Positions 20,257 through 22,924 of a stretch of DNA of 25,706 bases are shown piece by piece; the first letter of the stretch is position 1; each line of letters opens with the position of its first letter. Position numbers and translations under genes: made by a program. The DNA is from a virus, in IMG/VR virus record IMGVR_UViG_3300025646_000324, positions 1-25,706 of that record. The stretch is one strand, 5' to 3'. The notes beneath the pieces are model-generated. The model did not search any database, was not told where the DNA came from, and was given only the letters and a program-made list of their open reading frames with translations.

Positions 20257-20952
20257 ATGCGAGTGCTGGACCTGTTTAGTGGAATAGGCGGGTTCAGCCT
20301 CGCAGCAGAACAAGTTGGATGGGAAACTGTCGGTTTTTGTGAATCAGATGAATACTGCAAGAAAGTCCTTAGAAAGCACTGGCCAAGTGTCAGGATCTGG
20401 GAAGACATTAAAAAGCTCGCTCAAATCGAAGAACCAATCGGATGCGACGTCATCACAGGAGGCTTTCCATGCCAACCATTCAGCAATGCCGGGAAGCAAA
20501 GAGGCACTCATGACGACAGATACCTCTGGCCGCAGATGCTTAAAGTTATTGAACGCGAAAGACCCGCTTGGATCATTGCTGAAAACGTTGCTGCCATCAT
20601 CCCGATGGGGCTCGACAAAGTGCTATTTGACTTGGAAGCCCAAAGCTACTCCGCAAGGGCGCTTGTTATTCCAGCTGCATCTGTCGGCGCCCCACACCCC
20701 AGGCAAAGGGTATGGATTATTGCACACTCCAACATCCAAAATGGTTCAAGGCTCACCGTCACAAAGCCACAGCGGGTGGATGAGGCAAGACCGCAAAAGT
20801 GGTGGGAAAATGAACCCAGCTTGGGTCGAGTGGCTGATGGGATACCCAACAGGACACACCGCCTTAGATGCTTAGGCAACGCTATTGTGCCTCAAGTTGC
20901 AACTGAGATTTTTAGGGCGATAAAAATAACCAATCAGTTTCTGATTCGGTAA
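20257..20952 (+). CDS. DNA (cytosine-5)-methyltransferase
   Basis: Predicted 231 aa, ATG 20257 with AAGGGG upstream. Motif I is LDLFSGIGGFS (4-14), motif IV GGFPCQPFS with nucleophile C72, motif VI ENV (E109), motif VIII RQRVW (149-153), and GNAIVP (207-212) closes the fold. It transfers a methyl group from S-adenosylmethionine to C5 of cytosine. The stretch between motifs VIII and IX, which holds the target-recognition domain, is only about 50 residues, short as in many phage enzymes. No cognate restriction gene is seen, so it is probably an anti-restriction solo enzyme. It ends 19 bp inside the convergent LRR gene. Confidence 0.93.
   Translation: MRVLDLFSGIGGFSLAAEQVGWETVGFCESDEYCKKVLRKHWPSVRIWEDIKKLAQIEEPIGCDVITGGFPCQPFSNAGKQRGTHDDRYLWPQMLKVIERERPAWIIAENVAAIIPMGLDKVLFDLEAQSYSARALVIPAASVGAPHPRQRVWIIAHSNIQNGSRLTVTKPQRVDEARPQKWWENEPSLGRVADGIPNRTHRLRCLGNAIVPQVATEIFRAIKITNQFLIR
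20315..20875 (+). other. Overprinted second-frame ORF inside the methyltransferase gene
   Basis: A 186-aa open frame shifted by +1 relative to the methyltransferase. Its C-terminal two thirds contains CYLTWKPKATPQGRLLFQLH, then GYGLLHTPTS, then MNPAWVEWLMGYPTG. I recall very similar segments (CYLTWK..GRLLFQL, GLLPTPT, LNPxFVEWLMGFPxGWT) in phage methylase-associated proteins. The same DNA in frame one encodes motifs VI to X of the methyltransferase. No Shine-Dalgarno is visible at its ATG. Whether it is translated, frameshifted into, or a relic cannot be decided by eye. Confidence 0.4.
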
Positions 20953-21902
20953 AATCGTTTAGTAGCGCCTTCGTCCAGATCTACCTCTGAAGCCCCGCCA
21001 GTAGCCACAATAACAATCCTCCAGAGTTTCCACGGACCATCTGGGCTATCAGCCACATCGATAGTCTTAACCTCTCCTGGTACGCCTTTTACGGTTACTA
21101 CTGGCGCAAGACGAATTTCTAACGATTCCTCAGGGCCTACAAGCTCCGCGTCCTGCACGAGAAAACCATTTGGCCAGGCTGTTTCAAGCCCAATGCGAAT
21201 AGCCTCTGATTCGGAGTGGTAACGTTCCGGTATGCGGACTTGGGTCAGATACAGGCTGCTCGCAAAAGCCTTATCACCAATTTCGCTTGCACCACTCGGA
21301 ATGGTGACAGATGTCAGTTTTGAGCACATAGAGAATGCCATGCCTTCGATAGTCCTTACGCTACTGGGTAAAACGATACTTTCCAATCCGCTCTGGCTAA
21401 AAGCCACGGATGAAATTTTAGTTATTCCTTCTGGTAGATCGATTTGCTTAAGCCCAGCGCAGCCGTTAAACGTGCCCTCTGGAATCTCCGGAATCGATAC
21501 CGGCCAGTCAACCACAGTAAGCTTTATACAGTTGTAAAAAACAAATTCCTTGAGCGTGGCTTTAGGCGGTATTGAGATGCTCAAAAGAGAGTGAGCGCCC
21601 TGGAAGGCATGTTTTCCAATTTCAACCACGCTGTCCGGAATCTGGACTGACGTTATTAGCGTGCGGTCCATGAACGCGTATTCTCTTATTTTGGTAACAG
21701 GATAGCCGTCAATTTCATCCGGTATCACCAAGTCTCCTCTAGTGTTGGTCGCGCATCCGTAGATGTGAACCTCAAACCCGATTGTCTCATAAAAAAGTGA
21801 TCCCCACTGGCCCTTCTGTGCAGTGACTTCCAGACAAAGCGCCAAAGACATCACTCCTAAAGCAAAGCGTAACATCAGATTCATCACTCGATTTCCTATC
21901 AT
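20934..21902 (-). CDS. Secreted BspA-type leucine-rich-repeat protein A
   Basis: Predicted 322 aa, ATG 21902 (alternative ATG 21884). An N-terminal signal peptide (MNLMLRFALGVMSLALCLEVTAQ) precedes about six degenerate 23-residue LRR_5 repeats (…ITSVQIPDSVVEIGKHAFQG…, …LTSVTIPSGASEIGDKAFAS…). A C-terminal module follows (IRLAPVVTVKGVPGEVKTID…DGPWKLW…KRFYRIRN). This module ends many exported verrucomicrobial proteins (from memory). It lies 16 bp downstream of a paralogue with the same architecture, so the two are a tandem duplication in one operon. An extracellular or cell-surface binding role is likely; the ligand is unknown. Confidence 0.85.
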   Translation of the reverse strand: MIGNRVMNLMLRFALGVMSLALCLEVTAQKGQWGSLFYETIGFEVHIYGCATNTRGDLVIPDEIDGYPVTKIREYAFMDRTLITSVQIPDSVVEIGKHAFQGAHSLLSISIPPKATLKEFVFYNCIKLTVVDWPVSIPEIPEGTFNGCAGLKQIDLPEGITKISSVAFSQSGLESIVLPSSVRTIEGMAFSMCSKLTSVTIPSGASEIGDKAFASSLYLTQVRIPERYHSESEAIRIGLETAWPNGFLVQDAELVGPEESLEIRLAPVVTVKGVPGEVKTIDVADSPDGPWKLWRIVIVATGGASEVDLDEGATKRFYRIRN

Positions 21903-21918: not shown

Positions 21919-22869
21919 TCAATCCCTCACCCTGTAGAAGCGCTTTTCAGCGCCTTCGTCTAAGGCAATTTCAGTCACGCCGCCCTCACCTATAACAACG
22001 GTTTGCCAATCAGTCCATGGACCGTCTGCGGTCTCAGACACTTCAATGGCCACAGCTTTCTTGAATGTGCCTGTGACAGTTATCACTGGAGCCAGGCGAA
22101 TTGATAGATCTGATGAGCCAGGTGCACTGGTACTAAGGAAAAAGCTGTCTGGCCAGAGGTGTGCTAAAAGAAGACGATTTGCCTCTGATTGACTATGATA
22201 TGCTTCTGGTATGGTGATCGAGGTCAGGCTATCGCAACCCATGAAGACCTGTCCCCCAATGCTGGTGACGCCCTCGGGGATGGTGATCGAGGTCAAGCTG
22301 CTGCACCATATGAATGCATTACGTCCGATACTGGTGACGCCCTCGGGGATTGTGATCGAGGTTAGGCTATTGCACCAAGCGAAAGTCATGTCCCCAATGC
22401 TGGTGATCCCCTTAGGGATGGTAATTGAGGTCAGGCTGTAGCAGCTATTGAAGGCATTAACTCCGATGTTGGTGACGCTCTCTGGGATGGCAATCGAGCT
22501 CAGGCTGCTGCATTCGAGGAAGGCCCCATCTCCGATGCTGGTGACGCCTTCAGGGATAGAAATTGATGTTAGGCTGTTGCAGCTCCCGAATGCCCCCCAT
22601 TCAATGCTGGTGACACTGTCGGGGATTGTGATCGAGCTCAGGTTTCTGCACCTCTCGAAGGCTAACTCCCCGATGCTGGTGACAGGTAGGCCTTCAATTT
22701 CATTGGGAATGACCAACTCACCCTCAGCTAATGTCTTGCAGTCAGTAATCGCCACCTGACCATCAGCAATTTCATATTTCAGGTCACCGAGTGTACCAGC
22801 ACAAACGCTGGAGCTAAGGATTGAAAGAACCAACACGAGCCAGATGGAATGCATTAAGGGCTTTCTCAT
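21919..22869 (-). CDS. Secreted BspA-type leucine-rich-repeat protein B
   Basis: Predicted 316 aa from ATG 22869 (MRKPLMHSIWLVLVLSILSSSVCAG), a clean signal peptide; an ATG at 22920 adds 17 residues and would place the start beside the terminator. Seven near-identical 23-residue repeats (SLTSITIPEGVTSIGxxAFxxC) form an LRR_5 array, followed by the same C-terminal module as its neighbour (IRLAPVITVTGTFKK…DGPWTDW…KRFYRVRD). The repeats are far more regular than in protein A, implying recent expansion. It is first in the leftward operon and would be exported. A lysogenic-conversion factor is plausible. Confidence 0.85.
   Translation of the reverse strand: MRKPLMHSIWLVLVLSILSSSVCAGTLGDLKYEIADGQVAITDCKTLAEGELVIPNEIEGLPVTSIGELAFERCRNLSSITIPDSVTSIEWGAFGSCNSLTSISIPEGVTSIGDGAFLECSSLSSIAIPESVTNIGVNAFNSCYSLTSITIPKGITSIGDMTFAWCNSLTSITIPEGVTSIGRNAFIWCSSLTSITIPEGVTSIGGQVFMGCDSLTSITIPEAYHSQSEANRLLLAHLWPDSFFLSTSAPGSSDLSIRLAPVITVTGTFKKAVAIEVSETADGPWTDWQTVVIGEGGVTEIALDEGAEKRFYRVRD
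22211..22693 (-). repeat. Seven tandem 69-bp repeats encoding LRR units
   Basis: Units begin at 22211 and every 69 bp after. They share core words such as GGTGACGCCCTCGGGGAT and ATCGAGGT(C/T)AGGCT, while a middle segment varies. Each unit encodes one 23-residue leucine-rich repeat. Similar adjoining units make copy-number change by recombination or slippage likely. Confidence 0.8.
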
Positions 22870-22924
22870 GATGGCACTTCCTACCATACCGCAGAGCAGA
22901 TAATCAATAGGCAACAGCATTCAC

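Follow-up and report, generated by a model that had tools for sequence, protein, structure and literature searches.

The window analysed here is the whole 25,706-base stretch of the IMG/VR virus record IMGVR_UViG_3300025646_000324. It contains a gene on the plus strand (gene A) that encodes the catalytic chain of a C5-cytosine DNA methyltransferase and, within gene A, a second open reading frame in the +1 frame that encodes a different protein, B (Table 1). Protein A belongs to Pfam family PF00145 (E 6.7e-43, model positions 1-169 of 324 covered) and to the PHROGs family phrog_363 (E 7.3e-75). The catalytic and AdoMet motifs of PF00145 members (I, IV with its cysteine, VI as ENV, VIII and X) are all present. 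The AlphaFold model of A has a pTM of 0.78 and is confident over most of residues 1-140, with a dip at 71-90 around motif IV, and over 212-230; it is of low confidence at residues 161-210 (pLDDT about 48-61). Structural matches of this model in the PDB are M.HhaI (Z 22.8, 205 residues, 2.8 A rmsd), which Foldseek also found, and M.HaeIII.

Table 1. Features of the A/B locus and the basis on which each was assigned
Feature	Position	Strand	Basis
Protein A, C5-cytosine DNA methyltransferase catalytic chain, 231 aa	20257..20952	+	ORF list
A motif IV, GGFPCQPFS, with catalytic Cys-72	20458..20484	+	sequence; invariant G69, P71, C72, S76
A motif VI, ENV (109-111)	20581..20589	+	invariant columns E109, N110, V111
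A motif VIII, RQRVWIIA (149-156)	20701..20724	+	invariant R149, R151
A EPSLGRVADGIPNRTHRL, site of motif IX in ordinary enzymes	20812..20865	+	low model confidence; alignment
A motif X, LGNAIVP	20872..20892	+	invariant columns L206, G207, N208
+1 ORF with TTG start, 186 aa, inside A's ORF	20315..20875	+	ORF list
Protein B from first ATG, 175 aa, 528 nt	20348..20875	+	ORF list, translation
B core CYLTWKPKATPQGRLLFQL, predicted beta hairpin over A codons 122-141	20621..20677	+	conservation, model
B variable 'PTPT' segment (GLLHTPTS...), presumed target recognition	20714..20806	+	alignments; in-cis copies in L203, L206, L208
B KMNPAWVEWLMGYPTGHT, likely motif IX	20807..20860	+	placement; alignment to motif IX of ordinary enzymes

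Alignment with ordinary enzymes and motif calls found no motif IX in A itself, and no folded target-recognition region of its own was found in A by Pfam match or by model confidence. In ordinary C5 enzymes the PF00145 match runs to about model position 323, whereas in dual-coded ones it stops near 170-220. Because the match stops early and the model is of low confidence at 161-210, A appears to be a catalytic domain without an evident small domain. The original prediction had assigned motifs I to X to frame one; motifs I to VIII and X are indeed there, but motif IX is missing from it and probably corresponds to MNPAWVEWLMGYPTGHT in the +1 frame.

Gene A overlaps, in its final 19 nt (20934-20952), a convergent gene on the minus strand (20934-21902) encoding a BspA-type leucine-rich repeat protein, next to which lies a second gene of this type (21919-22920, minus strand). 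At the other end of the window, the 1401-residue product of ORF 120-4325 matches DUF7178 only (best stretch residues 963-1057). The neighbours of A/B encode a DnaB-like helicase, a deoxynucleotide kinase and a PDDEXK-like protein, which would fit a phage replication region.

The +1-frame product and its relatives

No stop interrupts the +1 frame between 20288 and 20872 and, besides the first ATG, a TTG at 20315 and a GTG at 20339 are alternative starts for B; counted from the ATG, B takes up 76% of gene A. The three stretches originally singled out in this frame, CYLTWK..GRLLFQL, GLLHTPTS and MNPAWVEWLMGYP, are all present in the translation, and the suggestion that the product belongs to a conserved phage family was borne out by a match to phrog_1008 (E 3.5e-25), named 'DNA methyltransferase' in PHROGs v4. 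Searches of Pfam (up to E 10) and NCBIfam yielded no family for the window's B, and a PDB sequence search with B found no relative. The fold of B is poorly predicted (pLDDT 61.9, pTM 0.26). Foldseek comparison of this low-confidence model with viral structures gave no match at E 0.001, and the best Foldseek match, to a cytosine-specific methyltransferase (E 0.013), was obtained with a model too poor for it to count. The predicted hairpin of the B core nevertheless reaches a pLDDT of up to about 95 at its centre, and W107, L121, L105 and T106 within the core are conserved among 93 B proteins. The PTPT segment consists of one module in the window's B and of several in many relatives.

Absence of homologues, which would have told against two conserved proteins at this locus, was not what protein searches with the +1-frame product found. 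Two B queries retrieved 76 and 96 relatives in phage records, a longer B-frame ORF retrieved 209, of which a few were examined, and relatives were found on 117 viral stretches and 323 genome stretches, from which the best 80 viral and the best 80 genome matches were examined as loci. According to their titles, these best 80 genome records come from Bacillota, Pseudomonadota, Bacteroidota, Parcubacteria, Verrucomicrobiales and others; among 398 genomes of one phylum, 4 had B relatives. Gene A overlapped B, with B in the +1 frame, at 80 of 80 viral loci, 80 of 80 genome loci and all four further genome loci, and none of these loci contained B without A. The locus sets are partly redundant: the contigs of L007/L008 recur as L037/L038, and certain others differ very little from one another. 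The frame is also open in close relatives, namely L007, whose A is 100% identical to that of the window, and L008 (92% identical). In the Paenibacillus larvae phage Lily, B is LILY_63, deposited as 'g62 internal gene', and several P. larvae phage records have two methyltransferase features at the A/B site. Cultured members of the family include Lily and the Lacticaseibacillus phage Lc-Nu. Judged from these records, phages and prophages from many phyla have kept the overlapping pair.

Selection on both frames

Stop codons in the alternative frames of A were compared with those expected when synonymous codons are shuffled within each A gene, counting codons after 60 in 117 genes (the window and 116 loci, duplicates included). 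The +1 frame contained 290 stops where 777 were expected, and in the translations those present lie mostly at gene ends, whereas the +2 frame contained 1528 where 1638 were expected. Taken alone, the window has 4 stops in the +1 frame against 6.0 expected, which is not unusual (P 0.21); its longest open +1 run was reached by none of 100 codon shuffles.

For a codon alignment, 15 of the 117 genes were first dropped (truncated, frame-swapped, A ending early, or L035/L036), and the remaining 102 were reduced to 79 non-redundant genes under 90% identical. Kappa, the codon identity beyond expectation, was 0.08 at A codons 1-55, rose to 0.43 at codons 60-165 and 0.47 at codons 175-205, and was 0.07 at codons 206-231, beyond the end of B; the synonymous conservation of A tracks the ends of B and is confined to the overlap. 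Divergence at third relative to first codon positions, measured in three identity classes, was 1.56-2.62 outside the overlap and fell to 1.13-1.27 inside it. Over the overlap, purifying selection acts on both frames, as in an overlapping gene pair.

Against a profile of B, every one of the 79 genes scored above all 20 of its own codon shuffles. The +1 frame of the window reached 229 bits with a profile from which it had been left out, against 149.5 for the highest-scoring of 1000 shuffles. The shuffled versions of the 79 A genes, however, still have a median score of about 100 bits, so the raw similarity of B is in good part an echo of A, and it is the excess over the shuffles that constitutes the evidence.

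As a negative control, 25 genomes carrying dual-coded loci were searched for PF00145; 30 loci were returned, and the 18 without a B match, which are ordinary C5 methyltransferases, served as the control set. Stops were not depleted in their +1 frame (336 against 320 expected), and their +2 frame had 550 against 570 expected. A separate observation concerns L213:1685-1870, an otherwise ordinary methyltransferase in which a 62-residue +1 stretch weakly matches the B profile (8.6e-8) and may be either an echo or a remnant.

Most loci had been retrieved with B as the query. When A was used instead, 30 viral loci were obtained. Single-sequence searching placed a B relative in the +1 frame of 28 of them, and L035 was added as a B-carrying locus when profiles were used. 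Among 16 non-redundant genes of this A-query set, kappa was 0.38/0.55 inside and 0.30/0.18 outside the overlap, a difference reached by 3 of 2000 column permutations. The contrast is smaller than in the set dominated by B queries, partly because the frame of B is open back to the start of A at many A-query loci. The prediction of dual coding is thus backed by stop depletion, synonymous constraint, codon-position divergence and the ordinary methyltransferase control: the +1 frame encodes a real, conserved protein family, and its dual coding with A is under selection.

Likely location of motif IX

The C-terminal end of B, LNPxWVEWLMGYPxGWT, resembles motif IX, and ordinary enzymes have a sequence like LTPRECARLQGFPESF just before motif X. 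When the B profile was aligned by hhalign with a profile of ordinary enzymes, the best alignment fell on motif IX and was weak (P 0.021); Pfam did not recognise motif IX of the B type on ORFs holding IX and X together. At 176 of 206 loci motif IX lies in B and motif X in A; L007 and L037, each with an A 100% identical to that of the window, are among them. In this count the identity of motif IX rests on position and the weak profile match. At five of the 206 (L026, L158, L189, L204, L205) both motifs are in B and A stops shortly past motif VIII, and at four (L199, L203, L206, L208) both are in A. Eight loci are frame-swapped, motif X was not called at 11, many of which are cut by the contig end, and two fall outside these classes.

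Several of these arrangements place the parts of B in cis with A. In L199:1347-2369, on the Candidatus Megaera plasmid CP113869, motif IX (LNPDWVEWLMGYPISWT) is in A's own frame and the enzyme is a single chain, while the +1 frame still encodes a B-like core and PTP segments before it reaches a stop. In the actinobacteriophages DLane, Rita and Leonard (L203, L206, L208), arrays of LPTP modules are divided between the frames, the first modules lying in +1 and the later ones, together with motifs IX and X, in the frame of A. In phages DrYang and Upyo (L204, L205), which are annotated with two genes, adjacent or overlapping, the B ORF holds PTP modules, IX and X. The end of B is likely motif IX, and its movement between frames is a stronger argument for this than the hhalign match. 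Since the segment preceding it is in cis in some enzymes and in the +1 frame in others, including the window, it is most simply regarded as the recognition part of one and the same enzyme.

Repeats and frame-swapped loci

Long repeats occur in the region at 8 of 8 frame-swapped loci and at 10 of 173 canonical ones (Fisher 1.8e-9, with thresholds set post hoc, loci that are related, and three canonical loci without coordinates left out). The repeats in frame-swapped loci are G8-G12, (CA)10 and (AG)7-11. G-tracts lie near A codons 154-156 (L009, L012-L014, L017, L019, L020), dinucleotide repeats lie near A codons 239-251 (L070, L106, L116, L137, L140, L155), and L034, L123 and L133 also have long simple repeats in or beside the recognition region. 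The sequences of L012 (G11, canonical), L017 (G12) and L019/L020 (G10) share 94-97% identity, each alignment having one gap, and their G10, G11 and G12 tracts place the recognition segment and motif X in different frames. The frame-swapped loci look like products of phase variation, the alternative being homopolymer errors in metagenome assemblies. It is possible, though we consider it rather less than probable, that these loci generate specificity by frame switching, with arrays of recognition modules readable in two frames. A one-base slip in a G-tract, a slip in a dinucleotide repeat or a small indel would then change the routing of modules and of motifs IX and X, directing them to a trans-acting subunit, to the catalytic chain in cis, or to silence.

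Discussion

We think it likely that this locus specifies one C5-cytosine DNA methyltransferase whose two subunits are encoded in overlapping frames. Frame A would yield the catalytic chain, with the AdoMet fold and motifs I-VIII and X. The +1 frame, read from an internal start, would yield chain B, its N-terminal core overprinted on motifs IV-VIII and followed by the recognition segment and motif IX, which in single-chain enzymes are placed between VIII and X. B would supply target recognition in trans, and A and B would assemble and methylate phage DNA, probably protecting it against host restriction. Dual coding under selection, an A chain with neither motif IX nor a folded recognition region, and a motif IX that moves between frames are observed; that B is initiated internally, that the chains assemble, that B recognises the target and that the enzyme counters restriction is what we infer.

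The original prediction had one family arising by overprinting the other. The overlap does appear overprinted, though not in a single direction. Over motifs IV-VIII, A looks ancestral and the B core overprinted, because the core of A is that of a universal family and the core of B had no relatives outside the overlap in the searches made. In the recognition and motif IX part it is the sequence of A that looks overprinted, because there the +1 frame holds methyltransferase-like sequence. On this view both proteins would combine an ancestral part with a new one.

A different route to the same activity would be a ribosome that shifts frame near motif VIII and fuses the catalytic part of A to the recognition segment and motif IX of B, with no separate B. 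This would yield a single-chain enzyme, and in L019/L020 a one-base change in the G-tract does fuse the A core genetically to the PTP segment and motif IX. We consider it unlikely, however, since well before the shift point, at A codons 60-150, the frame of B is already open and under constraint, and since Shine-Dalgarno-like matches of 4-6 nt with suitable spacing occur at 118 of 155 loci with an ATG no more than 15 codons from the upstream stop, a count that has no null. Because of this constraint and these start signals so far upstream, programmed frameshifting was rejected as the main route; of the two mechanisms originally offered, dual coding stands, and frameshifting is less likely than internal initiation. 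B is probably translated from an internal start. In the window, the ATG at 20348 and the TTG at 20315 are among the candidate starts, and we saw no clear Shine-Dalgarno sequence at the ATG; the C72C1 pair is one example of a relative in which the internal Shine-Dalgarno sequence is plainer.

B could instead be a real overprinted protein with a role of its own, for instance as a regulator or anti-restriction factor, rather than an enzyme subunit. Small anti-host proteins are frequent in phages and the B core has no recognised domain, but among the loci examined B never occurs without A, A is without motif IX where B has a motif-IX-like end, and the segments of B are in cis in single-frame relatives; a separate role therefore seems quite unlikely to us. 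Insertion of an HNH homing endonuclease was rejected, no Pfam HNH domain being found in the window's B (up to E 10) or in four further B-frame ORFs. It is very improbable that B is not a protein and that its openness and similarity merely echo the conserved sequence and codon usage of A, and this was rejected: shuffled A genes do retain enough score to inflate naive B homology, but real scores exceed every shuffle, stops are depleted in +1 and not in +2, codon-position divergence changes within the overlap, synonymous conservation falls at the end of B, and the signal is absent from the 18 ordinary methyltransferases.

If A and B are the halves of one enzyme, the overlap is open to immediate functional test. 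The two-subunit reading would explain both the phage and prophage 'DNA methyltransferases' that have no motif IX and no recognition domain and the companion family annotated as hypothetical or as methyltransferase, and it would mean that cloning one frame or recoding the gene gives a dead enzyme. The pair would also offer a system in which two proteins have swapped ancestral and overprinted parts and of which some relatives look phase-variable.

Comparison with known systems

To our knowledge, long same-strand overlaps conserved over great distance have rarely been described in bacteria and their DNA phages. Multispecific phage C5 methyltransferases of the SPR/phi3T type have several target-recognition domains in one chain and one frame. 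The present family shares with them a phage setting and arrays of putative interchangeable recognition modules, but here the arrays lie mostly in a second frame. Among natural split enzymes, we know of no overlapping frames in M.AquI, and the small subunit of M.EcoHK31I is reportedly (in a paper of 1995) read from another frame inside the large-subunit gene.

M.EcoHK31I (YGGCCR) is a bacterial restriction-modification enzyme, whereas A/B belongs to phages and prophages, and the two are likened here by motif layout. According to PMC3404938, M.EcoHK31I is a natural two-polypeptide enzyme whose large subunit has motifs I-VIII, X and a predicted target-recognition domain (TRD), and whose small subunit has motif IX. 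The large chain with I-VIII and X and the small chain with IX are common to A/B; the TRD predicted in that large subunit (PMC3404938) differs from the present case, where the recognition-like segments are in B. The corresponding region of A is of low confidence in the window's model, and the PTP segments of B are the putative TRD. M.AquI is described in the same source as naturally split between motifs VIII and IX (PMC3404938). Its second subunit contains the distal variable region, IX and X, whereas the window's B has IX without X; the five relatives with both motifs in B (L026, L158, L189, L204, L205) are closer to M.AquI.

Arsenault et al. (2025, PMC11855218) described HNH endonucleases hidden out of frame within methylase genes of phages; like B, these proteins are encoded in a different frame of such a gene. 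They are sporadic homing insertions (PMC11855218), whereas the B overlap spans the core of the gene and is conserved across phyla. Existing annotations, phrog_1008 and LILY_63, cover B, but neither states its nature or its conserved pairing with A, and no published description of the A/B overlap was found in the open-access PMC literature. Set beside these systems, A/B is most likely a new variant among the natural split C5 methyltransferases.
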